A DNA stretch of 64,000 nucleotides from assembly GCA_025463135.1 (NCBI GenBank), contig JAOAPY010000043.1:1-64000 (forward strand). The letters are read 5' to 3'. The notes below the pieces were generated by a model, which worked only from the letters and a program-made list of their open reading frames with translations, did not search any database and had not been told where the DNA came from. Made by a program: the position numbers and the translations under genes. Every line of letters begins with the position of its first letter. Within the stretch, counting starts at the first letter, position 1. Positions 19,401 through 49,089 of the stretch are shown one piece after another. Origin of the DNA: Acidobacteriota bacterium. GTDB taxonomy: Bacteria > Acidobacteriota > Blastocatellia > Pyrinomonadales > Pyrinomonadaceae.

Positions 19401-19667
19401 ATTACTAGCCGGTGCAGTGCCGGACGCAGCAAGAGCATGTTGTGCCAGCCGCGATGCAAGAACATTTAGAGTTAGACGTTTGATTCCAAACCAAGCTGCG
19501 GACGAGTTCACTACGCCGAGTTGAAAATCCGAAGCGGCTTCCGTTGAATTTGCAACAATGAGTATTTCAGTATCGGCGGGATAAGCTAGGACCCAGTTTC
19601 GAGCAGTTTGAAGGCGCGCGGCCGCATCACTGGAGACTTCGATTCGCTTTCTCGCGCTTTTAGTCAT
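16398..19667 (-). CDS. AddB-like nuclease subunit with Fe-S-type cysteines
   Basis: 1089 aa from the ATG at 19667; a longer in-frame form to 19718 would overlap the upstream gene. The N-terminus corresponds to the inactive helicase fold of AddB: the Walker A position reads ILIVANSTEAASD without a GKT. The C-terminal PD-(D/E)XK domain shows GSIDMVE and RVTDHKTGK with downstream YLQPLLYALACQ. A Cys in NYASCPYRFFLSAIL plus CNWCDFLAVC match the four-Cys Fe-S signature of AddB nucleases. The partner is the overlapping AddA-like gene. Confidence 0.88.
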   Translation of the reverse strand: MTKSARKRIEVSSDAAARLQTARNWVLAYPADTEILIVANSTEAASDFQLGVVNSSAAWFGIKRLTLNVLASRLAQHALAASGTAPASNLTFTAVVARAIHSLQSEGELSYFERVATRPGFPIAVAKTLEELRMNEVAADSIARLDRGGKDLAAIANLVEQELLESKLSDRAALYKAAIDSISSPENAPYAGLPLLLLDVAIRGRLESRLVQELAAGSPRVLATVPQGDERTVSSLEESFRCKRGNASATSGTNSLSLTKQHLFENSSPPITPLESSVTIQNWPGEPRECVEIVRGIQAEAERGVPFDQMAVLLNSPGEYRSHLEEAFSRAEIPAYFVRGTTAPDPAGRAMLALLACAADGLSAKRFAEYLSLGQMPAPAAKKDVESQWVAPIDELAASTTEAENSETANEIEDSDLVAEPEKSAVVDGALRAPARWERLLVDSAVIGGKDRWARRLEGLANEFRLRIEDVASEEEARVDSIRRDIRDLDALREYALPLIGRLADLPVKANWNEWLAHLRELAVNALRQPGGVMATLAELEPMGSVGPVDLYEVQLILEPRLHDLGVEPPKRRYGRVFIGPVDAARGLSFQVVFIPGLAERIFPRKIVEDPILPDVQRKDTELPTRRDRVEVERLALRLAIGAARDRVYLSYPRIDVQQSRPRVPSFYALEALRAAEGVLPGFEEIASRAESKTRARLGWPAPERPNAAIDEAEYDLALLANLVESNKEEATGAAHYLLTANTHLARALRARSRRWLRRWTPNDGLVDVDELGRESLAKHQFSARSFSATALQNYASCPYRFFLSAILRFNLRQEPAAIEVIDPLTRGSLFHETQFEVLTGLRAAGLLPLQAASLGKAFDLVDRGLGRLASDYEDRLAPAIPRVWHDGINSIRADLREWLRRMTDEHAWIPDKFELSFGLSDRGPREADPASVADPVGIIGDLKLRGSIDMVERQGDRFRVTDHKTGKARADKETIVGGGKYLQPLLYALACQELLDGRVESGRLYYCTADGGYEERVVTLDEENLHILNTVLIAIRQGLADAFLPAAPDDDACNWCDFLAVCGTFEETRTRIKPRDRLVQLKALRDLP

Positions 19668-19704
19668 GAGAACTCGGATTGCTCGACTACAGGGTAAAGG
19701 ACGT

Positions 19705-24668: not shown

Positions 24669-26020
24669 GTGAGGTCGCTATGGAAGCGTTGGATGGGCAC
24701 GCTCCTGTAATCATGAAGATACTTGTTCGGTTGAATATCGCGTCTTTTCTCACGATAGGCATGTCGCATGTAGATACGATCCGGGCCAAGTCGATCGAAC
24801 CAGGACCTCTTACCATTGGCAGATTTGCCGCGCTGAATCTCTTCGTGATGCGCGCACAGAGCCAAGGCGCAAGCGCCGGCATCGATCGGCTCTGCAAAAA
24901 CCCCAAATCGATCATCGAAGAGATTCTGAGCCGACACGCTGGTTATCTTTATTTCACCAAGGGCATGATGTGCCGTCGCGAATCGCTTGTGTAAATCTTT
25001 CACGCTTTGTAGAAAATCGGGATCATTGGCGATAGCAGTGACTTCGAACCCACGCGCATCAAGGCTGGTTGCCGCAGCTCTCATGAGATCAAATGCATCT
25101 TGTAAGGAACGAGCGAATGCTTCATAACTTCGAATCGCGTGTAAGAGTGAAGCACACGCCGGCTCGCGCTCTTCCAGTAAGTCGTGCAACGACTCTTCCG
25201 GTAACTCTCTATTCTCTGACTGTGAAAGGAGTTCCCAGATGGTTGGTAAAACTCCCAGTCGTCGATCGCTATCGGCAGTTAGCAGATTGCGCAGGGATCG
25301 TTTCTCTTGAAACTTGGCACGGGCGGGTGCGAATGCCTCCGCCAACTCCGTCCATGCTTCATTTGTCCAATTTGGTTTCGTGCGAGGCGGCTTCTCATTG
25401 AGACTGCGTCTTACTGCTGCAGTCCATCTCGAGAGAATTGGTTTAGTCTCACTCAGCCCACGTAGTCCTAAACCACGCGCCCAGGCGTCGACTAACCCCG
25501 CGGCATTCGGACCCGCACCGAGGTGCACATCTACAATTCCGAGGCGTATGGCCAGCCGTTTGTAAACGCCATGAAAGCCAAAAATTCGAGGTGTCTTTAA
25601 ATAACTTCGGGAGTCAAGATACCCATGTTGATTAAGCGCACGCCGCGCGACCAATGTCCCCGGTATTCCCCAAATCCCCGGATCTTCTCCTTTGGTTCGA
25701 ATCAACGCTTCTACAACTAGCCACTCCCACAGAAGGTAAGGCGAAGCATCACGAAGTTCTGGTTTGTCCTCAAGGTCTTCGGTTACGAGCGAACCTACAG
25801 CCATCGCGGTAAGAAAACGAATTCGTTGCATCCGTTCCCGCACACCCGGCACTAGTTGCACGGCTAACTGGTCGGCAATCTGATAAAGTCCCAGCGGATC
25901 AAGCGTACCCTCGCTCGCGCCTGGAGGATCGTAGCTGGAAAGAAATGGGAAGGCGGAGAACATGTGCTTTTGATCCATCGACGTTGTTACCAGTCCTTCA
26001 GGGTACTCATGGATCACCAT
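24665..26020 (-). CDS. Unknown 451-aa protein, operon partner of PLD and SNF2 genes
   Basis: I do not recognise the family. The protein is mainly helical and basic, with no membrane segment. The N-terminal half contains WEWLVVEALIRTKGEDPGIWGIPGTL; the C-terminal quarter contains ALALCAHHEEIQRGKSANGKRSWFD and a Tyr/Arg-rich end. The order 702-aa UvrD gene, this gene, PLD gene is tight (28-nt gap before, 4-nt overlap after), so an integral role in the system is likely. Confidence 0.65.
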   Translation of the reverse strand: MVIHEYPEGLVTTSMDQKHMFSAFPFLSSYDPPGASEGTLDPLGLYQIADQLAVQLVPGVRERMQRIRFLTAMAVGSLVTEDLEDKPELRDASPYLLWEWLVVEALIRTKGEDPGIWGIPGTLVARRALNQHGYLDSRSYLKTPRIFGFHGVYKRLAIRLGIVDVHLGAGPNAAGLVDAWARGLGLRGLSETKPILSRWTAAVRRSLNEKPPRTKPNWTNEAWTELAEAFAPARAKFQEKRSLRNLLTADSDRRLGVLPTIWELLSQSENRELPEESLHDLLEEREPACASLLHAIRSYEAFARSLQDAFDLMRAAATSLDARGFEVTAIANDPDFLQSVKDLHKRFATAHHALGEIKITSVSAQNLFDDRFGVFAEPIDAGACALALCAHHEEIQRGKSANGKRSWFDRLGPDRIYMRHAYREKRRDIQPNKYLHDYRSVPIQRFHSDLT

Positions 26021-26048: not shown

Positions 26049-28157
26049 CTACGCTGATGCTGGCAGGAACCGTAGGAACGGGCTGGGGCTGCCGAAAGAG
26101 GTAATGATCAATCTGTCACGGGCTCGCGTAGCTGCGACAAACAGGAGACATCTTTCTCTGACATCGTTTTCAGTTCTCGCAGTGGCGTCATCTTTGAAAG
26201 ACGGGGACCAACGCGGCAGCACTCCGTCGTTCATTCCGGCTAAGAGTATGCAGGGGAATTCCAGCCCTTTAATGCGGTGCATCGTGGACAACCGAATGCC
26301 GGGAGTTTCTTCCTCGTCAGCGTTGCCCAGTACGTAAAAGGGAATGCTCATTTCTTGCATGAAAGACTTATAGGTCTTCACCGCAGCGTTACTTCTCGCT
26401 ACAATGCACACGTTCTCTGGTGAGCGCTCCTCAAGCAACACTCTTATCGTCTTTTTGACAAAGTCACCCTCCGCCTCCGCAGTTTCAAAGTGACTCACCT
26501 CCGGTGTCGGCCCGGAAAGCAGTGATATGTATCCGTTGAGGTCGTCGCTCCCACCGTCGAGATTGTCGAAGTCGGTTTTCCCGAGCAGTTTGACCGCCCA
26601 GTCGCGGATTTGCTCGGTTGTTCGGTAATTTATGTTCAGCCTGCTGATCCTACCGAGCACGTCAATGCCACACTTTCCCAGAACTGACTTTCGGTCATAG
26701 ATGCGCTGGTGGGCGTCACCTACCATAAAAAGGTCATTGGGACCTTCGCGTACTAACCGCCGTATAAGTCGGAGCTCCTCGGGATGCAGATCCTGCGTCT
26801 CGTCGACGACCACAGCGCGGTACGGAAGAACTGGCTTGTTTTTTTCCAGGTAAATGCGTGTATCTCTGATCACGTCGAGCCAGTCACATTTGCCCGACGC
26901 ATTGATAATCTCCTGAAAACGTTCGAACACCTGCCAGATTCGTGCGCGGTCGGGTCTTGGAAGCGCCTTGCTGCTTCCGACGCGTGAGAACCGCAGATAC
27001 TCGTCTTTGCTCCTTATATCATTTGCTCTAACGATGCGTTCCCATTCTTGCCGAATGAAAGCCACGTCCCAGACCTGCGCACCGCAGTCTTCTACAGCTT
27101 GCTGCCAAGCCAGTCGTAGATCATCTTCGTTAACGATTTCAAACTTGGCCCCCATGCCACGCATGAAACCAACAGCCCATGAGTGAAGATTGGTGACTTC
27201 GATTCTTGAGGCATAGCTTCCACACAAACTTTTAACATTCTGTTCGACGTTTTTCGCCAAGTTGATGGAATAAGTCACGAACAGGACACGGTCTTCCGAC
27301 GCGGGAAAAACGCGAGACGCCAGGTATTTGGCACGGTGCATGGCTACAATGGTTTTACCTGTACCCGCGCCTCCAAGCACTAATGCTGGTCCTGAGAAGT
27401 TCGCATTCACTAAATAGACTTGGCTGGGGTGAAGGAAAACTCTCCACTTTTCCAAAGGCGCGTCGAGCATCGCGGATAAGTCGTATTGCGACTCAACCGT
27501 GGTAAACCTCCGACGCGTGTCTGGATTTTGTAGCGCCTTGTCAAAGTCTTCAGTATCGATCTTCTCCGTGGGCGCTGTCCTGAGTGCCGCACGCACTTCG
27601 TCGGGAGGAACGCCTTCGGATAACCATATCAGGGCCTCTGCAGCCTCGGTAGGGATGTGCTGCGTCAACGCAAGCATTTCTTCTTTTGTTCGCACAGCGC
27701 GCACCGTGGGAATCAACACCCTTGGCACGCCGAATGAGAGTAGAAGCTTGGAGCTAAACTGCGGGAGCAATCCGTGCTGGCTCGGTTCCGACGGGCGGCT
27801 GATTGGTACGATAGTTTCAACGGCTGAGACGCTATACACCTGCAAGGCGCCCGTAGATGGATTAATCTCGAAACTCTTATCCTTGGCCCAGGCCATCGCC
27901 TCGTCATGGTGGTCCACCCAAACCAGCACGTAGACATCGCCGGTTTCGGGGTGCAGGACAATTGCCCGGTAGCTTAGACTGATCCGAACTGTGCGGACCC
28001 TCTTGTCTTTCACCCCGTGGATCTTCTCGTAGTTAATGCTTGGGGCTTTCGGGTTGGTACGGAACTTCTCAGTGAATTCTCGGACCTTCTTCTGCTGCGA
28101 GAGGGGGATCCGCGCCAAGGAGTTAAGGAAATCCACCGATAGCGCTACCGTCGGCAT
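26049..28157 (-). CDS. RelE-like domain fused to UvrD-type helicase
   Basis: 702 aa. Residues 1 to about 95 resemble a RelE/ParE fold (FLNSLARIPLSQQKKVREFTEKF, KRVRTVRISLSYRAIV, DVYVLVWVDHHDEAMAWA). The remainder is a UvrD/PcrA-type helicase: Walker A GGAGTGKT (262-269), VVDETQDLHPEE, MVGDAHQRIYDRK, LSTMHRIKGLEFPCILL and LFVAATRARDRL. No nuclease domain follows. A purine-rich AAGGAAG precedes the ATG, which begins 1 nt after the preceding stop. The RelE-like part may be a nucleic-acid-binding module rather than a toxin, since no antitoxin gene is adjacent. Confidence 0.83.
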   Translation of the reverse strand: MPTVALSVDFLNSLARIPLSQQKKVREFTEKFRTNPKAPSINYEKIHGVKDKRVRTVRISLSYRAIVLHPETGDVYVLVWVDHHDEAMAWAKDKSFEINPSTGALQVYSVSAVETIVPISRPSEPSQHGLLPQFSSKLLLSFGVPRVLIPTVRAVRTKEEMLALTQHIPTEAAEALIWLSEGVPPDEVRAALRTAPTEKIDTEDFDKALQNPDTRRRFTTVESQYDLSAMLDAPLEKWRVFLHPSQVYLVNANFSGPALVLGGAGTGKTIVAMHRAKYLASRVFPASEDRVLFVTYSINLAKNVEQNVKSLCGSYASRIEVTNLHSWAVGFMRGMGAKFEIVNEDDLRLAWQQAVEDCGAQVWDVAFIRQEWERIVRANDIRSKDEYLRFSRVGSSKALPRPDRARIWQVFERFQEIINASGKCDWLDVIRDTRIYLEKNKPVLPYRAVVVDETQDLHPEELRLIRRLVREGPNDLFMVGDAHQRIYDRKSVLGKCGIDVLGRISRLNINYRTTEQIRDWAVKLLGKTDFDNLDGGSDDLNGYISLLSGPTPEVSHFETAEAEGDFVKKTIRVLLEERSPENVCIVARSNAAVKTYKSFMQEMSIPFYVLGNADEEETPGIRLSTMHRIKGLEFPCILLAGMNDGVLPRWSPSFKDDATARTENDVRERCLLFVAATRARDRLIITSFGSPSPFLRFLPASA

Positions 28158-28158
28158 T

Positions 28159-31100
28159 TCAGTTTTCTTCCTTCAGGTGTGTCGCCAGTAAGGAAATGTT
28201 TGCGGCGATATCGGCGAGCATAAGGATTTTCCAACCTTTGGCTTCAAAGGCGGGTGTAGACTCAGACTGTTCTGGAAGGAGTACCGCAAGCTTCTTGTCT
28301 AACCAGGCGAGTTCTGCTTGGCCCATGACGGACCCGTTTGCATCTACCAGTTCATACCCGACGTCCGGAAATGGAAGCCCATTGTGTGAGCAATAGTTGA
28401 TAGCGTTATGGCATCGCTCGTCGCAGTAGGTTCGTAACTCCACGGTTCCCTCTCGCTGGTCAGATCCATTTGCGTTAGCCCATTGAGGCGTTTCAATTCC
28501 AATGAACCCGCCGAGCCACTCGAAGACTTTGCTACGCTTCAAGCGGTCCCAGTAGAACTGATTGCTGTAGCTCCTTAGGCAGGTGTAGCAACTCCCTTCA
28601 GCGTCGCAGAGCGGATTATCGCAGGAGCGAGTTCGCTCAAGCGAGCGCTCAAGAATTCTCGGCAAGCGCTCGATGATACGCCGAACGTAACCCGCGCCAC
28701 CCGGGACTCGGTCATAAACGATTAGCTCGCCCGAAAGGCTGGTACTTGATTGCGATTGGTAGGTGGAGTCAAGGTCTGATCTCGGAATCGATAGGACTTC
28801 CGCCGCCGCAGATACGAACGCCGTCTGGAATGAAAGCCAGAAGTCACGGTCCGTCACATCAGGGGTATGAAGGCGCTCCGCAGCAAAGCGCAATTGCAGT
28901 GTGTCGGTTTCGAACTCGTGCGCTAGGTGGGTGCGGAAAATGATCCCGCTGCAATTAGTACCCCAAGGAGTCTGATGCGGACGGGCAGGTGTCTTGATAT
29001 TCTCCTCAAAGTGAACGCCGCAGGTTTTGCAGAGGCGGAACTGCTGGAAACGGTAACCCGGGTTAGCACGAAAGAGCTTGCCGTCCTTCCGATACCCGAA
29101 TGTGATACCGATGCCGCTATCGTGTTCTTTGAAATCCTCCGGTCTAGCTCCACTCACAAGGAACAATTCTGTATTTGAAGGAGGGCGTCTTCGATATAGG
29201 TTTGGCTCTGGTACGTCGTCGGAGTAGAACGTCTGAAAGCCTTGAGGCTTAATGTAAATTTGCGGCTGCGAAGGAAGTCCGCATTCACAAACTCGGTCCA
29301 TTGACTCGCTTTCAAGTTTGGTGACCAGGCGCCGACATTGCCTGCAGTAGCTATACTTCCGCACATCAAATCCCTGCGTCGGTCGAAGCACGCCACGACT
29401 AGCAAAGAGCCGACCGTCCGCAATGATCTCGGCACCTGGAGCATATTCCGAAATCCCTACTTCACGGTCCCGCTCTAATCTCATCTTATTTGACCAATCC
29501 TTCTGGCGCACAAGGAGACGGATCGTGTCCTGGGGAAAAGCGTAACTAGGAAGCCAATGAGCACTTGAGAGAAAGTCTATCAAGAACTCCGCCTTCAGCT
29601 GACTTATTAGTCTCTCCACCGACTCTTTGGCCCCTGCGATTCTCCTCAGTTCCTGAGTGGCGGCTTGGCCCTGCTTTGTTGTGAGTTCAGCGAGCTGCAG
29701 CTCAAATTCCGCTAACGGTCCGAGGACTCTTTCCTGATTAACCGATTCCATTTGCCAGCACGACTTTTCAAGACAGTCGTTTGGCGTAAGGTCTGAGCCT
29801 TCGGGCAAAATTCGTCGAACGGAATCCGCAAGCGGCGTACGATTATTTTCCACGTAAGCCCTAAATCGCGCCGCTGGAGCCTCGCACTGATTCGCAGCGC
29901 AGAAGAAGTCGGCAACCTTTTCTCCTAGCTTAGGATTTGCAAGTTCGCGAAGGTAGTGACCTAACAGAAATGAATTTACATGTCTTTGCGCAAGTCTTGT
30001 GTTGTTCAAATTGATTACGGGTGCCGGCACCCTGCCACGAACGATGTCACGGGGGTTGTGGTAATAATACTGATCATGAGGAATAGAGCGCGAGTAGGTT
30101 ACAGCGTAAGCGGCACCGTCACATCGTCGTCCCGCTCGTCCCGCCCGCTGAATGTAGTTGCTTGCCGTAGGTGGGACGTTTCGTAGGAAAACAGCTTTGA
30201 GCGCGCCGACATCCACACCCATTTCGAAGGTCGTGGAGCTGCTGAGAACATTGATCTCACCTTTGACAAATTTCTCCTGGTACTTCTGCCCATGGATGTT
30301 GGTCAACTGCGCCGTGTGTTCAGCCACTTCGAGGGCTAGCGGCTCCTTGTTGAGGAGGCGGTGGCGGTAATGATGATTCGCAAACTTCTTCTCGAGTTCA
30401 GTAGCATTGTACGGTTGTAGTTGGCCTTCACATCCGGGAGCGACACACGACCCAGCGACGTTGAAGATGGTAGTCCGGCCACAGGAGTCGCAGACTAACC
30501 AAGGCTTGGCCGTCGTCACATTGATTCTCTCAGAGTCAACTTGGTATTCGCCGCCAAAGCTTGTTTCCATCAACACCGTAACCCGAAGAGAGTCCCATAT
30601 TTTTTGCATCAATCCGTCGAGCTGCCGCTCGTCCGCCTCCAAGTCGAGCCCGAAGAACTTGGCACAAACATTCGCAATGAAACTTGTGGGGATCGTCCGC
30701 TTGGTGCGGCGCTTAGCTGTGTAGGGGTTCCAACGGTACCGAGCTCTCCCTTCAACCCTGTTGTTGAATTCGTAGTGGAACGCCGCGAAACTCGGCCCTT
30801 CGCCGATGTCTTCAATCAAAATACCTGGCTCATCAATGTGGAGAGCGCGACGCATCAGGAAGAGCTGCAGTAGTTGCTGGATAAAATCGAAACCAGATTC
30901 CTCACCCCGTTCGAATACTTCAGGCAGTTGGGCCGGAAGATCTTCGATGTTCCCGTCGGTCAAATAAATCTGCGCAGCAGCGATGCCCACGCCTGGCATG
31001 TTTAGCCGCTGCCGTGTTGAAGCGCAGAAATGCTGAAGAAGCGACACGTAAGCTTGACGGCGCAGATTCTTCTTGTCGGCTGGGAGCAGTTGTCGCGTAG

Positions 31101-33312
31101 GCTTGATCTCATAGCTCAAGACATCGCGCTCCCGATCGTAAGACCGTATCAAAACCAACTGGCGCTTGACCGCCTGACTTACGAACTGGTTTGCCACGTC
31201 GCTCAAGCCCACGGGAAGACCCCCGTTCAATTGCTCCTCCAACTTCACCGCGTCACATAAAGGCTTCATGTACTCAGTCTCGGCGGTGGTTCGCTTCAGA
31301 TAGGGCGCGAAGAAAGCGGCACGCTGCCGGCTGTCGGAGAAAGCGAGAAGACGCCGACCTCTAGCAGGAAGGCTTTCAGGGCGTTCTTCATCTTCGGGCA
31401 GATTCCGCATGACTTCCTCAGCCAGTACCGCTGTGGCCGCATCCTCACCGCTTCGGAAATCGCGGAGCACGCTTGGGTAAGGACGTGAAGTGGTTCCGCA
31501 GCGCGAGCAGACCTTCAGTTCGCCACCCTTTGGAGTCAAGTTACGCAGACTCACCCTAACGGGAGACTTGCAGCACGCTTTGCCTTTCTCCCCCTCATTG
31601 AAGCAACCGCAACTCAAGCAAAGCTCGACCTGATCCCCCCCTGAAGATTCAGCTTCTTCATCTGCTCCCGCTTCCGAAATGGAATTGTCCCAGGTCAGCG
31701 AGAGGCGGCGGGCGGCCTCTTCCGGTTGGTCAGACGGCGGCAAGGCCTGCCAAGTGCTTTCCTCGGTAACGTAGACAGAGACAGCCGGCATGCCACACTG
31801 GAAACAGGTGCTAACTGGCACGAGCAAGCTTCCGCAGTTCTCTTCACATCGCGCCCGGCTTTCGAGGTACAAGCGACTCCAGAAAGTTTTTGGATGGTGT
31901 TGCCGCCCATTGCAGGATGGCGCTATGCACAGCGAAGCCCCACTCAACCCGCGAAAGAAGAAATGGAACCTTGCCGGAACCAAGGGCGGCGCATCATCGC
32001 GCTCACGGGCATGAGAGCTGAGAATGAGCAACCACTCCAATGCAAGATGAGTTCGATCGCTATCTTCCCCCCATAGGAGTTGACAAAGCGCACCCAAACT
32101 ATGCGGCCTCTCGCAAACGGCGTCATGGATCTTTTTCAATGGCAGCCAGTCCGCAAACAACCGATGCAACATATGGTAGCTGGAGGCTTCGGCGACTGCC
32201 TGGTCGCTGTTTGGCAGGGTGGAATTCTCTATTAGTTTCCGTAGTTGAGTCGGCTCATCGAGCGCCGCGATCCATTTGACCAGAGATGCTTCGTCAGGAA
32301 CCACCTCAAAGATTTCCTCAGGTTTCACCTCGGACAGTTCAGCAGTAAAACTGTGAACGGTCTTTCCAAAGATGACATCATCAGGTTCGAACTTGGTACC
32401 AGTTATCGACTGGCCGAATTCCACAATCGCCGCTCGCGACTCGGCGCTGTCTCCCTCTGAGAGAGTTGCGCTCGTCAATATGAATTGAAGGTTCCTCTTC
32501 TGGTACGTTTGCCGTAGCCGTCGCATGAGCAGTGAAACGTCAATTCCCTGCGCACCTGTATAAGTGTGCGCCTCGTCAAGCACCACATACCTCAGAGATT
32601 GGTGGCGGAATAGATCGGCATCCCCGGGCCTCAGCAGAAGGTATTCCAACATCGCGAAGTTAGTAAGTAGGATATGTGGCGGCTGTTCGCGAATTTCGTT
32701 GCGTGAATATCTCTCGTTGCGGGCTAACTTGCCTTTCGCATCCTCTGATAGCTTCAATCGATCCCAGGGAGTGTCGCCGGTGTAACGGCCAAAAGTGATC
32801 TCAGGCAGGTCACGAAGCAGTTTCCTCATTCGATCGAGCTGGTCGTTCGCAAGGGCGTTCATCGGATAAATGACGATAGCCCGTACTCCCTCACCCGGAT
32901 TCCTCATAACGTCATCGAGGATTGGGAGCAAGAAACACTCCGTTTTGCCGCTGCCCGTCCCGGTGGCGACAATTAGATTACGGCCTTGCTGGGCCTTCTC
33001 GATAGCTACCGCCTGGTGTTCGTAAAGCGACCGCGTCAAGTCGAATTCTCTTTGGTTGAGTCTCTCAAGTCCTTTCGCAAACCGAGGTACCTCCTTGCGA
33101 CCAATTAAGTCCACACCGGTGGGGCCTTGTTTGTACGCGGGAATGCTTGTCACCAAAGGACGTAGTGAGAACACATCTTCCTGTTGGAGTGCCTCCCAAA
33201 AAGCTTGGCGCAACTCAGGCTCCGAGTCGGCCACCATATTGGTCGTGAAGAGATAACGTCGGTATGTATCGATCAGCGCGCTTGAAAACTGGTGGACATT
33301 AATTTCGCGCAT
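28159..33312 (-). CDS. Giant DEAH helicase with DUF1998/MrfA-like C-terminus
   Basis: 1717 aa. Walker A ATGTGSGKT (116-124), DEAH (246-249), motif III FILTSATLSEG, and motifs V/VI as TTFEMGVDVGALKAVFLR and QRAGRAGRR. Two Cys-rich insertions (around residues 460-600, with CFQCGMP and CLSCGCF pairs, and around CDSCGRTTIF) suggest zinc-ribbon insertions. Near the C-terminus VPGGAGYVRRI precedes CDNPLCDAEGSCYTCLRSY, the four-Cys signature of DUF1998/MrfA helicases. Related parts occur in DrmA/DrmB, DpdJ and DruE, but here helicase and DUF1998-like region are in one chain. Probably the motor of the operon. Confidence 0.9.
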   Translation of the reverse strand: MREINVHQFSSALIDTYRRYLFTTNMVADSEPELRQAFWEALQQEDVFSLRPLVTSIPAYKQGPTGVDLIGRKEVPRFAKGLERLNQREFDLTRSLYEHQAVAIEKAQQGRNLIVATGTGSGKTECFLLPILDDVMRNPGEGVRAIVIYPMNALANDQLDRMRKLLRDLPEITFGRYTGDTPWDRLKLSEDAKGKLARNERYSRNEIREQPPHILLTNFAMLEYLLLRPGDADLFRHQSLRYVVLDEAHTYTGAQGIDVSLLMRRLRQTYQKRNLQFILTSATLSEGDSAESRAAIVEFGQSITGTKFEPDDVIFGKTVHSFTAELSEVKPEEIFEVVPDEASLVKWIAALDEPTQLRKLIENSTLPNSDQAVAEASSYHMLHRLFADWLPLKKIHDAVCERPHSLGALCQLLWGEDSDRTHLALEWLLILSSHARERDDAPPLVPARFHFFFRGLSGASLCIAPSCNGRQHHPKTFWSRLYLESRARCEENCGSLLVPVSTCFQCGMPAVSVYVTEESTWQALPPSDQPEEAARRLSLTWDNSISEAGADEEAESSGGDQVELCLSCGCFNEGEKGKACCKSPVRVSLRNLTPKGGELKVCSRCGTTSRPYPSVLRDFRSGEDAATAVLAEEVMRNLPEDEERPESLPARGRRLLAFSDSRQRAAFFAPYLKRTTAETEYMKPLCDAVKLEEQLNGGLPVGLSDVANQFVSQAVKRQLVLIRSYDRERDVLSYEIKPTRQLLPADKKNLRRQAYVSLLQHFCASTRQRLNMPGVGIAAAQIYLTDGNIEDLPAQLPEVFERGEESGFDFIQQLLQLFLMRRALHIDEPGILIEDIGEGPSFAAFHYEFNNRVEGRARYRWNPYTAKRRTKRTIPTSFIANVCAKFFGLDLEADERQLDGLMQKIWDSLRVTVLMETSFGGEYQVDSERINVTTAKPWLVCDSCGRTTIFNVAGSCVAPGCEGQLQPYNATELEKKFANHHYRHRLLNKEPLALEVAEHTAQLTNIHGQKYQEKFVKGEINVLSSSTTFEMGVDVGALKAVFLRNVPPTASNYIQRAGRAGRRCDGAAYAVTYSRSIPHDQYYYHNPRDIVRGRVPAPVINLNNTRLAQRHVNSFLLGHYLRELANPKLGEKVADFFCAANQCEAPAARFRAYVENNRTPLADSVRRILPEGSDLTPNDCLEKSCWQMESVNQERVLGPLAEFELQLAELTTKQGQAATQELRRIAGAKESVERLISQLKAEFLIDFLSSAHWLPSYAFPQDTIRLLVRQKDWSNKMRLERDREVGISEYAPGAEIIADGRLFASRGVLRPTQGFDVRKYSYCRQCRRLVTKLESESMDRVCECGLPSQPQIYIKPQGFQTFYSDDVPEPNLYRRRPPSNTELFLVSGARPEDFKEHDSGIGITFGYRKDGKLFRANPGYRFQQFRLCKTCGVHFEENIKTPARPHQTPWGTNCSGIIFRTHLAHEFETDTLQLRFAAERLHTPDVTDRDFWLSFQTAFVSAAAEVLSIPRSDLDSTYQSQSSTSLSGELIVYDRVPGGAGYVRRIIERLPRILERSLERTRSCDNPLCDAEGSCYTCLRSYSNQFYWDRLKRSKVFEWLGGFIGIETPQWANANGSDQREGTVELRTYCDERCHNAINYCSHNGLPFPDVGYELVDANGSVMGQAELAWLDKKLAVLLPEQSESTPAFEAKGWKILMLADIAANISLLATHLKEEN

Positions 33313-33315
33313 AAT

Positions 33316-33879
33316 TCAATCCTGATGCTTGAGGCCATAAACGATGAAGGCTGATAGTTCGCTGTCGGAGTACAGCCAGTCGGCTGTTGGTGCCACCCGC
33401 ACAACGATCCTCGTTCTAGGTTGTTCCGTTGAAAACTCCGGCAGCACCCCACGACATGATTGGATGGCACCAGAGAGAATCTGCTCCCACCCGGTGGTCC
33501 GTGGGTGGCCGGCTAGTATCGAATCCGGAATGAGAACTGATCTCACTGGTGTTGAGGATTGTGCACAGCCCGGTTCGCTGCACCGGAATTCAACAACATC
33601 ACGAAAGCTGACTCCAATGGGGATACAGTCGCACCGAATACAGCGCAGCTCCCACTTGATTGTGTTCAGTTGGCGCTGAGTCAACTTATTCTGACGGAAC
33701 AGCGCAATAACCTCTGAGTCACTGTGACGGCGGTGTCCAGCGGGTATTCCATACATACCTAGTAGCTTCCCAACGGCACTCTCGCCTCGTACCTGCCCTA
33801 GGAAGGCCTCATCATTCTGCAAGGCGACCGACCTCTTACGCAGATAGACGTTGGATCTTAGCTTCAGATTTGATCTCAA
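33316..33879 (-). CDS. Small Cys-rich protein between Hsp70 and helicase genes
   Basis: 187 aa starting at TTG (33879), supported by AGGAG six nt upstream; the start overlaps the Hsp70 stop (TTGA). A putative zinc site is formed by CIRCDC and FRCSEPGC (residues about 79-105). The first 60 residues are basic. No recognised family. The position immediately before the giant helicase suggests a specificity or adaptor subunit, by inference. Confidence 0.6.
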   Translation of the reverse strand: MRSNLKLRSNVYLRKRSVALQNDEAFLGQVRGESAVGKLLGMYGIPAGHRRHSDSEVIALFRQNKLTQRQLNTIKWELRCIRCDCIPIGVSFRDVVEFRCSEPGCAQSSTPVRSVLIPDSILAGHPRTTGWEQILSGAIQSCRGVLPEFSTEQPRTRIVVRVAPTADWLYSDSELSAFIVYGLKHQD

Positions 33880-35339
33880 GGGTTCTCCTGCGAAATGTCA
33901 GAACCGGGTACTTCATACATCCATCGAAGCATGTCATATTTGAAGGACCGCTTCCGTTGAGGTTTTGCTTCGCTATCGGCGTTCGCTTCGAAGACCAGAT
34001 CCGAGGTAATGTGGCAATCCAATTCTATGAGTTCATCACGGAAGCCAAAACACGGTGTGTGCAGCTCACCAATGTGGGTTGCTCTCTCATCGCCATTGCG
34101 AGCAGCGAAGTTAAAAGTAGCTGTGGTGGCGTCCTCTACCAAACCAAAGTGCAATGTTGAACGCGCGCTTTCTTGTTTGGTATTAACAGGGAAGATAGCG
34201 TGGAATTGGTCATCTGACAGAACGACGCCGATGCTCTCTGCCATCCGGTAGCAGCCCGGATGGGCCGCCACCCAGGCGGCACCGCGCGCTATATCCCAGT
34301 CAGCTTCTCGAGGAAAGATGATGTTCGGGTGCGGCCAACGCTGCCGCAGCTCTCGCTGCAGCAGGCTTAGTTGACTAGTGCCGCCCACAACAATCAGTCT
34401 GCCGATCTCTTCCTGCGAGACTCGGGCCGCCTCCACACACTGCAGTAGCATCTCGAGAGCGCCCGAGACGACATCCTCGAGAATACTGTTAAGCGTCGCT
34501 TTCGTGAGAGTCTGAGCGACGAGTGTTAAGCCCGCGTAGCGCCCCAGTTCAATCACCGCCTGCGTGGCATCTTCTTGCTGCAATTGCCGTTTCGCCTTTT
34601 CAGACTCATTTAGCAGGATGTGGCGCTCTTCGGGAGCGACATTGTCGAAACCGATAGTCAGGCCATGTGTCTCGGAAATTTGGCTATGAAGCCATCGCGC
34701 TAGCAGATCATCGATGTAATCACCTGCCTTGGGCGAGCCCGCAGTATACCGTTCGATGATGCAGCCACTCTTCACCTCGAGGACTGATATGTCCAGCGTA
34801 CCGCCGCCCCAGTCAAAAACCACCGCGTATCGACAGTGGCGCAATTCCCCAGAGTGGGCAATGAAGGCGGCTGTGGGCTCGGAGATGAATGAAAGGACTT
34901 TGACGCCGGCAGAGTCCGCAGCACTTCGCAAGGTGGCACGTTTGTCCGCATTCATCCCGATCGGAATGGCGACCACAGCCTCGCGGAGCGGTGGATTGTT
35001 GTCCTCTTCGGCGCGTTGCGCCAAAGCCCTGAACAGCTCACTGGCAATATCTCCGGCGCGCCACGTTCTGGCGGGAGTGGTCCACAACTGGTCTGAGTCG
35101 AGAATGGTTTTCACCGACTCAATTACGAGGTGCATACCGCCTTCGCGAAGGGTAATGATCTGGTCTTTGACCTTTTGCCCTGCAGAGACTTCTTGGGTGA
35201 GGTTGTCGACTGCGATCACGGAGGGAAATGGGATTGGACCCTTTTCGCCAATTCTAGTAAAGGACTTTCGCTGGTCATCGTAGACCACAACCGCGCTGTT
35301 AGTAGTTCCAAAATCGATGCCGAAGTGTTTTGCCATCAC
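33876..35339 (-). CDS. Hsp70-like protein lacking the alpha-helical lid
   Basis: 487 aa. The nucleotide-binding domain is complete: GIDFGTTNSAV (7-17), AVVAIPIGM, EPTAAF, VFDWGGGTLDIS and VVGGTSQLSLLQ. After about residue 375 only some 110 residues remain, enough for a short beta region but not for the C-terminal helical lid of DnaK (about 640 aa). There is no adjacent DnaJ or GrpE by sequence, but a coiled-coil gene lies directly upstream with overlap. Start is GTG 35339 or the next codon ATG. Confidence 0.9.
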   Translation of the reverse strand: MMAKHFGIDFGTTNSAVVVYDDQRKSFTRIGEKGPIPFPSVIAVDNLTQEVSAGQKVKDQIITLREGGMHLVIESVKTILDSDQLWTTPARTWRAGDIASELFRALAQRAEEDNNPPLREAVVAIPIGMNADKRATLRSAADSAGVKVLSFISEPTAAFIAHSGELRHCRYAVVFDWGGGTLDISVLEVKSGCIIERYTAGSPKAGDYIDDLLARWLHSQISETHGLTIGFDNVAPEERHILLNESEKAKRQLQQEDATQAVIELGRYAGLTLVAQTLTKATLNSILEDVVSGALEMLLQCVEAARVSQEEIGRLIVVGGTSQLSLLQRELRQRWPHPNIIFPREADWDIARGAAWVAAHPGCYRMAESIGVVLSDDQFHAIFPVNTKQESARSTLHFGLVEDATTATFNFAARNGDERATHIGELHTPCFGFRDELIELDCHITSDLVFEANADSEAKPQRKRSFKYDMLRWMYEVPGSDISQENP

Positions 35340-36886
35340 GCGTCCTTCGAGATGTCCACACCCGCCTGGTTAAGCTGCGCCTCGACCTGGCCCAACCAAC
35401 TTCGCAGGAACTCTGAAAGGCGTGAACTCGGCTCTTGGTCGTCGGTAGTCCTCTTGTTCTTAAAAACTGGGCGCAGAGACCGCGCCAGTTGCGCCTTGAA
35501 GCCCTCAAGTCTTACCGCAGCTGTACGTTCGATCTCGTCCTCAAGCTCTCGTCTCTCGCTCGCCCCGGCCAGTTTCTCTTCGTCAAGTGCTTGCTGCACC
35601 TCTTCCCTCTCATGGGCCAGAGAACGCGAAAGCGCCTCAGCAGTCTGTTGAGCTTTCCGGGTCGACGCAAGCTCGGCCTCAAGCCGTGAAATCGCTGCCC
35701 GTAGACCGTCCGCCTTGAGTCTAATTTGTTTGAGTTCGGATTCAAGCTGGTCCTTACCCGCCTCTGAGTTTTCCAACGCTTGAAGCATTTGCTCTAGTAG
35801 TTCAATTTCGCTTGTCACATAACGAACGTCGTTCTGCAATAGCTCAACACTGGAGTTTCGCAGCTTAACTTCAGTTTGCTTGCGAGTTATTAGTGCGGTC
35901 ACAGCGGAACGGAATGACTCTTCGAAAGCAGAATCTGGCGTGCCAGCCTCAGGTACAGGCGCCTCTGATGTTGAAGCATCTGGTAAAGCGTCTGTCGTTA
36001 CTTGCTGAGCAGTCGTGCGAGTCTCGTCGAGGTCAGGTGCGACATTATCTAAATTGGACACGCCTCGTTGGTCCACATCGCTCGGAGAAGGCAAACGGCG
36101 AGTCATCTCTGAAGGTACTTCTGCAGTCAGCTTCGCCAGCTCCGTCTTCCATTGCTGAGGAAAGTCTTTCGCTATCTCCTTCACCTTTTTCGTCACAAGT
36201 TCCCGATCAGCAATATCTATGCTGATGCGTTTCACATTTGATAGAGCCCACCTAGAAAAATCATACGCAGGACGCTGACTCTTCTTCGCCTTTCCCCCAT
36301 CCGGCTCAGTCATGGCCTCAACAAAACCCGCCATCAAAACTCGCATCAGAGGCTCTTCCGGCTCGTCGAAATAAACCCACTCTTTATTTCCGAAACGGCC
36401 TCGAAGCAGCTCCTTTTTTTCCTTTGACAGTTGTGGCCAGAAGTCCTCCTCCTTGCCTTTCTTGCCTCTTGAAATCAGACCTTGGAGTATGTATGCGGCG
36501 CTTCGGCGGTCGGTTCGCGCGACCTTGTCCGCAACGGCTGCTTGTCTAGTTTGACTTTTCTCCGAGGTTAGCTTGAGCAACTCGGAAACGAGTTGATCTT
36601 TTCTATCCGCTGGCAAACTCTGCCAGTGTTTCTCAAACAGAGACTCAACAATTGGGATCGGCAGATCCTGCGCCAGTGAAAGGATGTTGCCTAGCTCCGC
36701 TTGGGTAGATGTGGGAGAGAGCAGAGCCGCAGCCATCATCTCCTCCGCAGCTTTCGCCGATTCGGGTGGCCATGTCCGTTTTCCACGCGAGACCTCAATC
36801 AGAGCGTGCAGCTTGGACAGTGTGGTGTCGTCAGTTGCAACTTGCGCAGTAGAGGTTGGTTCCGCCGCGACGTTCGATTCAATCAT
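35336..36886 (-). CDS. Coiled-coil protein paired with Hsp70
   Basis: 516 aa. Residues 1-250 are helical and charged, 250-320 are low-complexity Ser/Thr/Pro/Asp, and about 325-470 form a strong coiled coil (for example ELLEQMLQALENSEAGKDQLESEL and SRSLAHEREEVQQALDEEK). The end has SEFLRSWLGQVEAQLNQ. A long coiled coil next to an Hsp70 gene recalls GrpE, but I see no GrpE beta domain. Its start overlaps the 990-aa gene by 8 nt and its end overlaps the Hsp70 gene by 4 nt. Confidence 0.7.
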   Translation of the reverse strand: MIESNVAAEPTSTAQVATDDTTLSKLHALIEVSRGKRTWPPESAKAAEEMMAAALLSPTSTQAELGNILSLAQDLPIPIVESLFEKHWQSLPADRKDQLVSELLKLTSEKSQTRQAAVADKVARTDRRSAAYILQGLISRGKKGKEEDFWPQLSKEKKELLRGRFGNKEWVYFDEPEEPLMRVLMAGFVEAMTEPDGGKAKKSQRPAYDFSRWALSNVKRISIDIADRELVTKKVKEIAKDFPQQWKTELAKLTAEVPSEMTRRLPSPSDVDQRGVSNLDNVAPDLDETRTTAQQVTTDALPDASTSEAPVPEAGTPDSAFEESFRSAVTALITRKQTEVKLRNSSVELLQNDVRYVTSEIELLEQMLQALENSEAGKDQLESELKQIRLKADGLRAAISRLEAELASTRKAQQTAEALSRSLAHEREEVQQALDEEKLAGASERRELEDEIERTAAVRLEGFKAQLARSLRPVFKNKRTTDDQEPSSRLSEFLRSWLGQVEAQLNQAGVDISKDA

Positions 36887-39851
36887 GGAGCAGTGCCTCC
36901 TCTAACTCGATGTCTTTCTCATGTGGTGTAATGTCTGACAAGCCGAGAGAATCTTTGTCAGAGTCATAATCGCTGTTGTTTCCACTAAGCTTGCTAAGAA
37001 CGATATGCAGTTTACCCCAGTGACTGCCTAGTTGGCCCACCAGCTTCTGAGACTCAGAAAAGAATTGCGGATGATGGGTGTGAAAAAAGATCATCAAGCG
37101 CAACGCCGAAGCAATTTCCCAAACGAGCCCCTCAACCGCCACATTGCAGGTCAACTCAAGATCCCTAATCGAGCTAAAGAAGTACTCATTAGATTTCTCA
37201 ACACTGTGGTTGCTGCGGCCTTCGAGGGCATAGTGGTAGTCTTCAGCCGCTTTGGTTAGGATCTGCCCACCTTGCAATCGACCAATTCTGCTTTGTCTAG
37301 CGGCTTGCCAGCGCTGCCGCCTGCAGTGACCGGTCCATTCCACGACCATGCGCTTGTAATCGCCGAAGCTTCTGCGGTTCCGTAAAGCTCTTATGACTTG
37401 CGCGCAGTTGTTGCGCCAGCGCCAGTTCGGCGTGCTTCTGGATTTGGCGATGACGCGACGCAGTTGAGGCCTGCGACTAAGCAGTAGAGCTGCCATGGCT
37501 GGGTTGACGTGCCTATCCTCCTCGACAAAATAACGAGCCTCAACATACCAAGTCAGCGAGCTGCGCAGATCCCCCTCCAGGAGATTAGAGAGTTCCTCCG
37601 ACCCTTGCTGCCAATCTAAGATCCGGGCACAGATTTCATAGAAAAGCAGGAAGACATGCAATTGCTCTGGAATCACCAGACCCTGGAGCGAGAAAGGCTT
37701 CACAGGCTTCGAGTGCATGTCCCTCATGGCATTAAGAACGACCCGTAGATCGTGTGGAACACACTCAATCCAAGAACCAAATTCCTCGTCAGGGTCATCG
37801 AAAAGTCGTTTCTCGATCAACCTGTCATGGAGAAAAACGATGTCTGAGCAAACAACTCGATCGTGAGAAACCCGAACTGCTAAGCGCCCTGCGAGACGGG
37901 CGCGCGTTTGGAAAGCATCTCTAATCGAATCGGTTGATACTTCAAGCCGGGAGTTGCGAGGGACGGGTCCCAGGTCGATGCACTTCACAAAACCTTGCCG
38001 GTCCGCAACCCCAAGATCAATTCTTCGGCCGCACTCCGCCGAAGACAGCGAAAGAGAGACAGTCGAGCGGTCCCTCAGACGATCCTGCCAGACTACTTGT
38101 CCTTGAACGATATCGCCTTGAACCGTAAATCTGTGAACTGCCCCAGCAACGTGAAAGCTAACCGAATTCTGGTATGTGATCTGTCCATCGACGAAATCCA
38201 ACTTTGGAGGGACTCGCCACTGTCCAGGCCCAATTCTTTCGACGGAGATCTGCTGCCACTCTGCCCGGAATTTGTCGCCTGGTTCAAGCTCGATAATCAG
38301 CGACTGGTCAGGACCATTGAGGCCTATGGGCCACACGAGTTTGGCCTTCGGTAGAAGGACGTAATCTATTGGGCTTTGCCAAAAGCCTTTCGGAGTTCTT
38401 CCCTTAGGCTCAATGTAGATTCGGCCTTGGAGCGGTGGCGAGCCTAACGGTAGATGAAAAGTGTCTTGTGAACGGTACAAATGCTCGGGTACTCGATGCT
38501 GCCTGGTACCGTCCTCCTGAATTAACACATACCTCTCCGCAAAACCGAGGTTCCAGTGCTCGATCCTGATTTCCGGCAGTTCCCCGACGAACGCATTGGT
38601 CGTATGGGGCAACGGAGGGATCGAGGAGACGAAGCTCAATTCCGGAAAACACTCAGACACCGAGTCGCCTACCGCGAAACCAATCGACGGCAGCTCAAAA
38701 CCAGGTGGCAGATCACAATCAAAGACCTTCATGACTAAATGATGAAAACCTGGCAAGTAGAGATCACCTAAAACCTCGATCACAAACTCCTCAGGAATAG
38801 ACTCTGCTTCCGGCAAGGCAACAAGGTGTCGGCCCGCCCGAACCTTTCGCATGTTAGAGTCGATCGAAGATATCTCAAGGCTGCCGTCGTTATTGCGAAA
38901 CACTGCCCACGATCGCTCTTCAGGCCGCCAGGGCACCATCTTCCAAGTCTCAGTTTTACCGCTAGGATAAACAATCTTGCCGCCCAGCGAGCCTCCAAAG
39001 TCATGCTCCTTGAGCATGTATCGCTTAGCTCTGACTTTGGTGCCGTCGAGCCACTGATATCTGCCTTCTAGTCCTTTCTCGGAGAACTCAAGTGCCAACC
39101 TGAGATTGATTCTGTCCAAAACAAATCTAGGCATCGGGAGGTTGTCAGAGCTTGCGGCAACTGACGGGAGGCGCGCCATCACCATTCGTATTTTCTTCAC
39201 CGTCAGCCTAAAGCGAGGCATTAACGTCGAAACGTCAGATTCGTCGAATATACCCTTTTCGAGGTTGCTGATAATCCGTGCCACGTCTCGACAGTACTCC
39301 CAGCCGTTAGTTCGCAAGAAGCTTTTGAGCCAAGGTGACTGCACCGTGGTCTTATCGCAGCCCTCCCTGTAATCACTTTCTGAAAACCGAATGCCGTAGG
39401 TGCGGATGAGTTCGACAAAGAAGGCGGCGAAAGCGTTCCCCAGTCTGGCCGGCACTCCTGCCTGTAGCATGATTGGTCTGACGTAGCGGAAAGGTCCGGG
39501 GAGATCTTCAACGTAAAAGTGTCGGCTTAGCAGCCTAAGGATCGGTCCTCCAATTTCTTCCTGCCAGAGATTGACGTCTTGCAAGGGGCGGCCGAATAAC
39601 TTGTGAAGCACTTGCCAACGAAAGCCTTCTTCGATTTCATCGGGTGAGTAGTAGGCTAAATTCACGACAACAACTGCTAAGGCCGCACAAATCTCGTCAT
39701 CCCAGCCCGCACGCCCAGTGTACTTACCCACCGAGGGAGCCAGTTCACTGATCTCGTGTTCTGAAACCTCTAGGTCGCCGACGAACCCTACATCACGGAA
39801 CCGGCTAATCCACTCCTGTCCGCGGGTCTTTATTGTAGCCAGGTCGTACAA
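36879..39851 (-). CDS. Unknown 990-aa protein, first large gene of the eleven-gene operon
   Basis: No family recognised. The start is TTG at 39851, preceded by GGAG at six nt. Residues 1-250 are helical, 250-700 are rich in beta-strand segments typical of stacked Ig-like or beta-sandwich domains, and 700-990 are helical and basic (Arg/Lys/Trp-rich around WRWRNNCAQVIRALRNRR), ending in an acidic tail. No signal peptide or ATPase motif. Given the modular build and leading position, it may be the recognition or scaffold subunit; this is inference only. Confidence 0.65.
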   Translation of the reverse strand: MYDLATIKTRGQEWISRFRDVGFVGDLEVSEHEISELAPSVGKYTGRAGWDDEICAALAVVVVNLAYYSPDEIEEGFRWQVLHKLFGRPLQDVNLWQEEIGGPILRLLSRHFYVEDLPGPFRYVRPIMLQAGVPARLGNAFAAFFVELIRTYGIRFSESDYREGCDKTTVQSPWLKSFLRTNGWEYCRDVARIISNLEKGIFDESDVSTLMPRFRLTVKKIRMVMARLPSVAASSDNLPMPRFVLDRINLRLALEFSEKGLEGRYQWLDGTKVRAKRYMLKEHDFGGSLGGKIVYPSGKTETWKMVPWRPEERSWAVFRNNDGSLEISSIDSNMRKVRAGRHLVALPEAESIPEEFVIEVLGDLYLPGFHHLVMKVFDCDLPPGFELPSIGFAVGDSVSECFPELSFVSSIPPLPHTTNAFVGELPEIRIEHWNLGFAERYVLIQEDGTRQHRVPEHLYRSQDTFHLPLGSPPLQGRIYIEPKGRTPKGFWQSPIDYVLLPKAKLVWPIGLNGPDQSLIIELEPGDKFRAEWQQISVERIGPGQWRVPPKLDFVDGQITYQNSVSFHVAGAVHRFTVQGDIVQGQVVWQDRLRDRSTVSLSLSSAECGRRIDLGVADRQGFVKCIDLGPVPRNSRLEVSTDSIRDAFQTRARLAGRLAVRVSHDRVVCSDIVFLHDRLIEKRLFDDPDEEFGSWIECVPHDLRVVLNAMRDMHSKPVKPFSLQGLVIPEQLHVFLLFYEICARILDWQQGSEELSNLLEGDLRSSLTWYVEARYFVEEDRHVNPAMAALLLSRRPQLRRVIAKSRSTPNWRWRNNCAQVIRALRNRRSFGDYKRMVVEWTGHCRRQRWQAARQSRIGRLQGGQILTKAAEDYHYALEGRSNHSVEKSNEYFFSSIRDLELTCNVAVEGLVWEIASALRLMIFFHTHHPQFFSESQKLVGQLGSHWGKLHIVLSKLSGNNSDYDSDKDSLGLSDITPHEKDIELEEALLHD

Positions 39852-43347: not shown

Positions 43348-44442
43348 ATGATCAAACAAGTCTATTCCCGTCGACTCAAGAAAAACGTTTACCGGCTTGA
43401 TACGCGGCTGACTCATGGGATCAGGTTTCGGAGATTCTTTCTGAAGCGTTCCGACGCTGAGGCTGTCGCCTACAAGATCAAACACGACGCGACAACGCGA
43501 CGTTTTGGATTATCCGTAGCCTTAGATCGCCCGATGATGTCCGAGCTGGCCGAGCGATACGCCGACGACATTCAGAACCCTCGCGAGCAACAGAGGGCAA
43601 AGCGAGTACTTGCGGATTTCTGCAAACTACTCACGCCTGGTCTCTGCGTTGATGAGGTTACGAAGGCTGATTGCAAGAGGTACATCGACAAGCGAATGCG
43701 AGATGACTTGAAGCCGCAATCAATCGATCGGGAACTAAGTATTGTTGTGGCTATGTTCAATCAAGCGGAGAACTACTTCCCTGCCCTGGACCAATGGCGA
43801 CCGCCACGAATTCCCAGACCAAAGATCATCGACGGTCGGAGAGAAAGAACGTGGAGCGAACATGAAATCAAAGTGGTCCTGGGCGAGCTGTTTGCACCCA
43901 AGCGCGAGGATGAAAACGTGCAGTCAGCGATTGCCCGCAATAGGGTTGGCCGCAAAGTTCAGTTCTGTCTCTTGAATGGAGTGCGACATAGTGAGATGAA
44001 TCTCATACCGAAGACGGGCATTGATTGGGAAGCTCGCCAGGTGCGAATCAGACAGGGCAAGACCGGCAACTACAAAATCATCGGTCCGCTTGGGCCAACT
44101 TCGATGGAAATTCTGCGCGAGTTCTACGACGCATCGAAAACAGATCTGGTGTTTTCACGTAGCGCCAACATCACGCCAAAGTTCTACCGGATTCTCCGAG
44201 AGGCTTGTGAACGCGCAGGCGTTCCATACGGCCGTGGCACGCGTGATGGCTTGGTCCTTCACGATGCCAGACACACCGCCACAACTCATCTGCTTGAAAG
44301 CAATGTCAGTCCTAAGACCGTTCAGGAGTGGATGGGCTGGTCCGACAAGGCTTTTGTTCTCTATTACTCGCACGCCAGTAAAGGATCCAGAGAACAAGCC
44401 GGGCAATCGCTGGAGAGGCTTGCAGGGCGGAAGACCGCATGA
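43348..44442 (+). CDS. Tyrosine recombinase (phage-type integrase)
   Basis: 364 aa with AAGGAGG just before the ATG. The N-terminal arm-binding part (RLKKNVYRLDTRL) and core-binding helices (EVTKADCKRYIDKRM) precede a catalytic domain with Arg213 (NGVRHSE), Lys238 (QGKTGN), His305/Arg308 (LHDARHT), Trp331 in the His/Trp position (MGWSDKA) and the nucleophile Tyr340 (YYSH). All five key residues are present, so the enzyme looks active. It lies about 4.6 kb from tRNA-Leu and is the probable integrase of the island or of the right-hand element. Confidence 0.92.
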   Translation: MIKQVYSRRLKKNVYRLDTRLTHGIRFRRFFLKRSDAEAVAYKIKHDATTRRFGLSVALDRPMMSELAERYADDIQNPREQQRAKRVLADFCKLLTPGLCVDEVTKADCKRYIDKRMRDDLKPQSIDRELSIVVAMFNQAENYFPALDQWRPPRIPRPKIIDGRRERTWSEHEIKVVLGELFAPKREDENVQSAIARNRVGRKVQFCLLNGVRHSEMNLIPKTGIDWEARQVRIRQGKTGNYKIIGPLGPTSMEILREFYDASKTDLVFSRSANITPKFYRILREACERAGVPYGRGTRDGLVLHDARHTATTHLLESNVSPKTVQEWMGWSDKAFVLYYSHASKGSREQAGQSLERLAGRKTA

Positions 44443-49004: not shown

Positions 49005-49089
49005 TGGTGCCGAAGGGGGGACTCGAACCCCCACGAGTTACCTCACACGCCCCTCAAACGTGCGCGTCTGCCAGTTCCGCCACTTCGGC
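49005..49089 (-). tRNA. tRNA-Leu(GAG)
   Basis: The minus strand reads GCCGAAG (acceptor) to CTTCGGC plus discriminator A and an encoded CCA at 49007-49005. The anticodon stem CACGT/GCGTG encloses loop TTGAGGG with anticodon GAG. A long variable arm, as expected for a class II leucine tRNA, and a T arm GGGGG-TTCGAGT-CCCCC follow. It lies downstream of secG, a common bacterial arrangement. Its 3' end faces the accessory region, making it the probable integration target. Confidence 0.93.

Follow-up and report, generated by a model that had tools for sequence, protein, structure and literature searches.

A lidless Hsp70 and its coiled-coil partner as the possible regulatory half of a YprA-family helicase operon in an Acidobacteriota genome

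What is an Hsp70 that has no lid doing just ahead of a giant helicase? In 64,000 nt of DNA from an Acidobacteriota bacterium (GCA_025463135.1, contig JAOAPY010000043.1; this whole stretch is termed the window, and coordinates are window positions), an Hsp70 gene of 487 codons with a GTG start (33876..35339) and the gene for a 516-residue coiled-coil partner (35336..36886) are, like all 11 genes of their operon, on the minus strand. They lie between a 990-residue first gene, g990 (36879..39851), and, after a small gene, that for a 1717-residue DruE/YprA-family helicase (28159..33312). The interpretation favoured here, to which a probability of roughly 0.5 is given, is that an integrated element carries an anti-phage system built on a YprA(DruE) helicase, that the pair makes up the regulatory half of this system and that its Hsp70 is a tethered ATP switch. 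It is the gene content of the operon and the element carrying it that point to an anti-phage role.

The setting of the pair recurs. (Labels such as L139 denote contigs or loci retrieved as related to the window.) A search based on the helicase gave 97 loci, 17 from a viral collection and 80 on genome contigs, and in just one of them is an Hsp70 nearby. This is L139, from a Gemmataceae metagenome-assembled genome, where the order is a 1046-residue protein, coiled coil, Hsp70, small protein and helicase. Among 297 genomes of its class a single further Hsp70 was found besides L139's own, and this one, in L195, is within the same order of five genes, next to a restriction island; a viral scan with the L195 Hsp70 yielded nothing. 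The five-gene order (large protein, coiled coil, Hsp70, small protein, DruE/YprA helicase) is common to the window and these two planctomycete contigs, and the helicase of the Hsp70-linked loci is 1717–1947 residues long. The L139 and L195 Hsp70s are 51% identical to one another and each is ~24–28% identical to that of the window. The window Hsp70 is 36–37% identical over its length to that of the viral-collection contig L198, in which coiled coil and Hsp70 are followed by a UvrD fusion, DrmA (1.7e-235), DrmB (1.8e-82), a NERD helicase and DrmMII (1e-87). Because L139 and L195 have the five-gene order and L198 a DISARM class 2 set, the pair accompanies two kinds of YprA-family system.

The 487-residue protein is matched by the HSP70 Pfam family (E 1.9e-37), and its closest solved relative in a PDB sequence search is a DnaK, the match spanning residues 2–338. 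In an alignment that included E. coli DnaK, HscA and HscC, the DnaK residues D8, T11, K70, E171, D194 and T199 correspond to D9, T12, K77, E154, D176 and T181 of the window protein, the catalytic set being complete, and the actin-like ATPase fold, the phosphate-1, phosphate-2 and adenosine motifs and the catalytic Lys, Glu, Asp and Thr that mark the superfamily are all present. An earlier note on this DNA had been right that the nucleotide-binding motifs are kept. With an alignment of the window protein and Hsp70s of related loci, seven sequences in all, an AlphaFold2 model was obtained with a predicted local distance difference test score (pLDDT) of 87.1 and a predicted template modelling score of 0.87; the two-sequence alignment that it replaced had given a pLDDT of 35. 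In the model the nucleotide-binding domain (NBD), which has the ATPase site, is residues 1–360 (34260..35339), beta strands make up 364–476 (33912..34250) and no helix follows before the end at 487, the helical lid (the alpha part of the substrate-binding domain, SBD-alpha) being absent. Residues 3–472 superpose on DnaK 2–505 (VIA-align with 7krv_B, Z 40.5, root-mean-square deviation 3.0 over 452 residues, among chains ranked by Foldseek). As DnaK 2–505 comprises the NBD and the beta part of the substrate-binding domain (SBD-beta), the window Hsp70 is lidless, as had been proposed, yet it retains the substrate-binding beta domain. That retention had gone unremarked, as had the absence of the linker LLLD (DnaK 390–393), in place of which there is a gap in this and the other defence-linked Hsp70s of the alignment.

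How far is it from housekeeping chaperones? A tree was built of 24 Hsp70s, its root uncertain as four rows are long-branched. In it the canonical rows (DnaK, HscA, HscC and haloarchaeal) cluster at 97/94 with the window Hsp70 outside; the window and L198 proteins pair at 100/100, and nine defence-linked rows cluster at 91/90, not a starred value. Two complete DnaK-type genes are elsewhere in the same genome (E 8e-265 and 2.3e-240), one of them, on contig C51, adjoined by a GrpE gene. Among 119 genomes of the family the window's own gene is the sole one above DnaK-level similarity, with none in the other 118, and a plasmid search with it gave DnaK-level matches only (203 records, all below 60% identity, widest coverage 26%). 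Since it lies outside DnaK, HscA and HscC in the tree, is in a defence-type operon and has operon-linked homologues, the view taken earlier that it is not a housekeeping chaperone is supported, and the placement within ordinary DnaK or HscC clades without operon-linked homologues that would have told against that view was not what was found.

The helicase is the other fixed point. PADLOC identifies it as DruE1 (3e-211), and its Pfam domains are DEAD, Helicase_C and MZB (DUF1998). In the helicase tree it lies outside the ARMADA II clade on a long branch whose fork is open; that the Hsp70-linked YprAs form one tight clade was considered and found no support. A side observation is that, within the window's own family, the DruE-like helicases closest to this one (L070:1-14177, L075:1-14564) come after a partner of ~1000 residues; their neighbours are putatively type I CRISPR-Cas parts, with a following open reading frame (ORF) presumably like Cas4-Cas1. 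At the other end of the five-gene set g990 had no match in Pfam, PADLOC or NCBIfam, and it was found neither in 161 other genomes of the class nor in a plasmid search. However, a hidden Markov model built from 24 proteins whose genes immediately precede those of DruE-like helicases matches it (E 1.5e-7, 28.4 bits, among 8621 ORFs), as it does the first genes of L139 (1.3e-9) and L195 (2e-6) and two cyanobacterial proteins (6.3e-13 and 8.8e-11). Compared directly, g990 and the planctomycete first genes show no significant similarity, and it is as a distant member of that large-protein family, through the wider profile only, that they are linked. An identification with DruH is not supported, as PADLOC gave no match and the same model misses E. 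coli DruH. The small gene (187 codons, TTG start, 33316..33879), which encodes cysteine pairs and overlaps the Hsp70 gene by 4 nt, had no PADLOC match. A gene is in the same position in L139 and L195, and in L198 the counterpart is the N-terminus of the UvrD fusion.

The partner has, as an ORF, weak coiled-coil Pfam matches only and, in PADLOC, weak LmuB/PbeC matches only, and a plasmid search with it gave no match; counterparts in L198, L139 and L195 are recognised by position and by C-terminus. Its gene overlaps that for the Hsp70 by 4 nt, as had been stated, given the GTG start; the next codon is ATG and a start there would reduce the overlap to 1 nt. Its last ~130 residues (35339..35728) are a coiled coil and a helix pair. 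When the C-terminal 130 residues of the four coiled-coil proteins are made into a profile, GrpE loci rank straight after the profile's own members among the 8621 ORFs (best E 8.9e-5, then 0.0048 and up), and a reversed copy of the profile does not rank GrpE in that way. The match spans E. coli GrpE 35–142, with coiled coil and helix bundle in register, E. coli GrpE on its own scoring E 1.1, and the coiled-coil proteins stop about where the match stops, at the helix pair before the GrpE beta domain. This sequence resemblance of the partner's C-terminus to the GrpE coiled coil and helix bundle, minus the beta domain, is suggestive. The GrpE beta domain is a wedge into the nucleotide cleft, and in the Mycobacterium tuberculosis complex its sheet is driven in between IB and IIB, with the long helices in contact with NBD and SBD (PMC10803776). 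A protein that has the helices and not the wedge would presumably serve as a tether more than as an exchange factor.

The mechanism we envisage is that the coiled-coil protein would form a lasting complex with the lidless Hsp70, in which the Hsp70 would bind ATP and hydrolyse it slowly. Its uncovered beta domain may sample an exposed segment of a partner (the small protein, g990 or the helicase) or of a phage protein, and its occupancy together with the nucleotide state could license the giant helicase to load or assemble on infecting DNA. The Hsp70 of the pair would then act in defence as a tethered switch rather than as a folding chaperone, and the nearest working model would be Ssz1 with Zuo1. 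Proposed earlier as a dedicated ATP switch, it is plausibly one, the active site being intact. The tethered switch is favoured because of the kept gene order, the two kinds of YprA-family system, the identity to the L198 protein, the intact site, the lidless fold, the tree, the GrpE-like C-terminus, the family to which g990 belongs, the overlapping genes and the Ssz1 precedent.

Several results weigh against it. No Hsp70 is in any of the 18 DruE-like helicase loci of the window's phylum, nor near 96 of the 97 loci found with the helicase, and the module is rare (0/341, 0/251 and 0/185 genomes at E 1e-55, 1e-52 and 1e-52, strict cut-offs at which divergent members would be missed). No significant similarity was found between the small genes across loci. 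The intact ATPase residues are unlike the weak hydrolysis of Ssz1. The background of the GrpE test was enriched in GrpE loci, and its coil decoys numbered 16. The earlier suggestion that the pair brings its own exchange factor is left divided: the match of the partner's C-terminus to the GrpE coiled coil and bundle stands, but the beta wedge is missing, Pfam's GrpE family (PF01025) does not match the partner and single partner sequences are not significant against GrpE, the best for the window segment being E 2.0.

Related to the pair is a sister set of Hsp70s in other systems. In L203:193-16188, BrxB, BrxC, PglX, a C2H2 zinc-finger protein, a ~400-residue coiled-coil protein, an Hsp70, PglZ and BrxL are in a row, the Hsp70 being of the lidless type with a C-terminal cysteine motif, and the triad is inserted between PglX and PglZ of the BREX locus. 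In L199:4348-11935 a McrB-like AAA gene and McrC are followed by a C2H2 protein, a partner and a sister-set Hsp70. A wider proposal, which we put forward tentatively and hold to be somewhat short of even odds, is that a lidless Hsp70 clade with a wedge-less GrpE-derived coiled-coil partner is a portable ATP-timed control cassette in at least four unrelated DNA-targeting immune systems (DruE/YprA, DISARM, BREX and McrBC), sensing phage proteins or timing effector assembly. The sister-set partners themselves were tried as GrpE-like and dropped, as GrpE scores about equally with their profile and with that profile reversed.

Could the pair instead be a dedicated folding chaperone for the 1717–1947-residue helicase or for g990, with no sensing role? 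This is the main rival and, while we think it unlikely, it has substance as in the window, L139 and L195 the pair sits with very large proteins and the substrate-binding beta domain is retained. That most relatives of the helicase do without an Hsp70 counts only weakly against it. Efficient client cycling in DnaK needs the lid and the canonical linker, and both are missing; moreover, domain searches found no DnaJ-domain gene in the operon. Another possibility is that coiled coil and Hsp70 form an independent two-gene unit merely present within defence islands. The pair does precede different systems, as does the sister set, but its place between first gene and helicase is constant in three distant genomes, in the window the overlaps are 4–8 nt and the sister triad of L203 is within a BREX locus between PglX and PglZ, all of which make a hitch-hiker improbable. 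Also quite improbable is a part for recognising RNA or ribosomes, the role proposed for CnuD of CoCoNuT. Hsp70-like units occur with coiled coils in CoCoNuT operons, for which RNA binding is argued (PMC11090510), and a sister Hsp70 adjoins McrBC in L199, but the CnuD argument rests on mostly degenerate ATPase motifs where those of the window are intact, and scans with Pfam, PADLOC and related libraries recognised no RNase, McrB/McrC or PglX-like methylase among the 11 genes, the recognisable neighbours being ones that act on DNA. A diverged housekeeping DnaK paralogue, for which the best Pfam and PDB sequence matches being Hsp70/DnaK could be cited, is hardly credible with the protein excluded from the 97/94 canonical group, the genome having two ordinary DnaK-type genes at other sites, of which one adjoins GrpE, and 0/118 other family genomes having anything above DnaK-level similarity.

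The remainder of the operon follows closely, with adjacent genes overlapping by up to 14 nt or separated by up to 28 nt. After the YprA helicase is a UvrD-type helicase of 702 residues (26049..28157), homologous over its full length to the gene after YprA in the ARMADA-II-like viral-collection loci L099, L100, L101, L103, L104 and L107 (34–45% identity); it is ARMADA-II-like although the window YprA lies outside that clade. Five more co-directional genes (12814..26020), which are probably on the same transcript and perhaps a second system, encode a 451-residue protein of unknown type, a PLD protein (701), an SNF2/DrmD-like helicase (956) whose nearest relative is DrmD, an AddB-like nuclease (1106) and an AddA/RecB-like protein (1195). 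A plasmid search with the PLD and 451-residue genes gave no match. The AddB-like nuclease and AddA/RecB-like helicase at the operon end (12814-19718), besides the PLD and SNF2 proteins, are a possible second recombination-type defence unit. As a tyrosine integrase (43348..44442, plus strand), a DUF3854 protein and a tRNA-Leu (49005-49089) flank the other side of the Hsp70 operon, the operon likely sits on an integrated element, of which that integrase is the presumed one; a search for attachment-site repeats at the tRNA-Leu gave nothing beyond a 12-base repeat. Between integrase and tRNA-Leu a DUF6414 gene adjoins an AAA ATPase (44526-47086), likely a further two-gene cargo unit.

Several defence families have a YprA/DruE helicase as their common core, and little is settled about the trigger of these helicases. 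An Hsp70 part recurring across such systems would be a trigger or timer open to testing, and would exemplify the use of an Hsp70 as an immune switch in bacteria, alongside the host DnaJ that bNACHT25 is reported to require (PMC12169576). It would also be a naturally occurring Hsp70 that has lost lid and canonical linker while its ATPase site is intact, which is useful for questions of Hsp70 allostery.

How does the window compare with what is known? It is a variant of known YprA-type defence systems, possibly with a wider Hsp70 cassette behind it. A search of the literature, covering few subscription papers, for links of Hsp70 to Druantia, DISARM or BREX yielded the CoCoNuT papers only, and the text of the YprA preprint does not mention hsp70, dnak or chaperone. 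To our knowledge Hsp70 is not a described part of DISARM; L198 places coiled coil and Hsp70 directly ahead of DrmA, DrmB and DrmMII of a class 2 system, a set that the window lacks. ARMADA type II has in common with the window a YprA helicase followed by the UvrD-type helicase, and differs in the clade of its YprA and in the PglX-like methylase. CnuD is alike, by its published description, in being an Hsp70-like protein with coiled coils in a restriction-type operon, and the argument of its authors for RNA binding is from mostly degenerate ATPase motifs (PMC11090510), whereas those of the window are intact and neither McrB GTPase nor HEAT repeats were detected there. The DnaK-GrpE couple shares NBD and SBD-beta fold, and there is the suggestive resemblance of the partner's coiled coil and bundle to GrpE, the window pair being without lid, LLLD linker and GrpE beta domain. 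Ssz1-Zuo1 of the yeast ribosome-associated complex resembles it in having SBD-beta, no lid and a tied partner (Ssz1 is at fold rank 31). Ssz1 lacks SBD-alpha and binds ATP but hydrolyses it little or not at all (PMC8476630); being eukaryotic, with a J-protein partner and weak ATPase, it serves as a works-like comparison only. With Druantia and its YprA kin the window shares the DruE-type MZB helicase and an upstream large protein of the DruE-partner family, while in PADLOC g990, the coiled coil, the Hsp70 and the small gene match none of DruA-D, DruF/G/M, DruH and DruK. For Druantia III it has been proposed that DruH is the sensor and DruE the helicase-nuclease effector (PMC13192584), and by analogy the extra genes of the window would correspond to the regulatory layer of that system.

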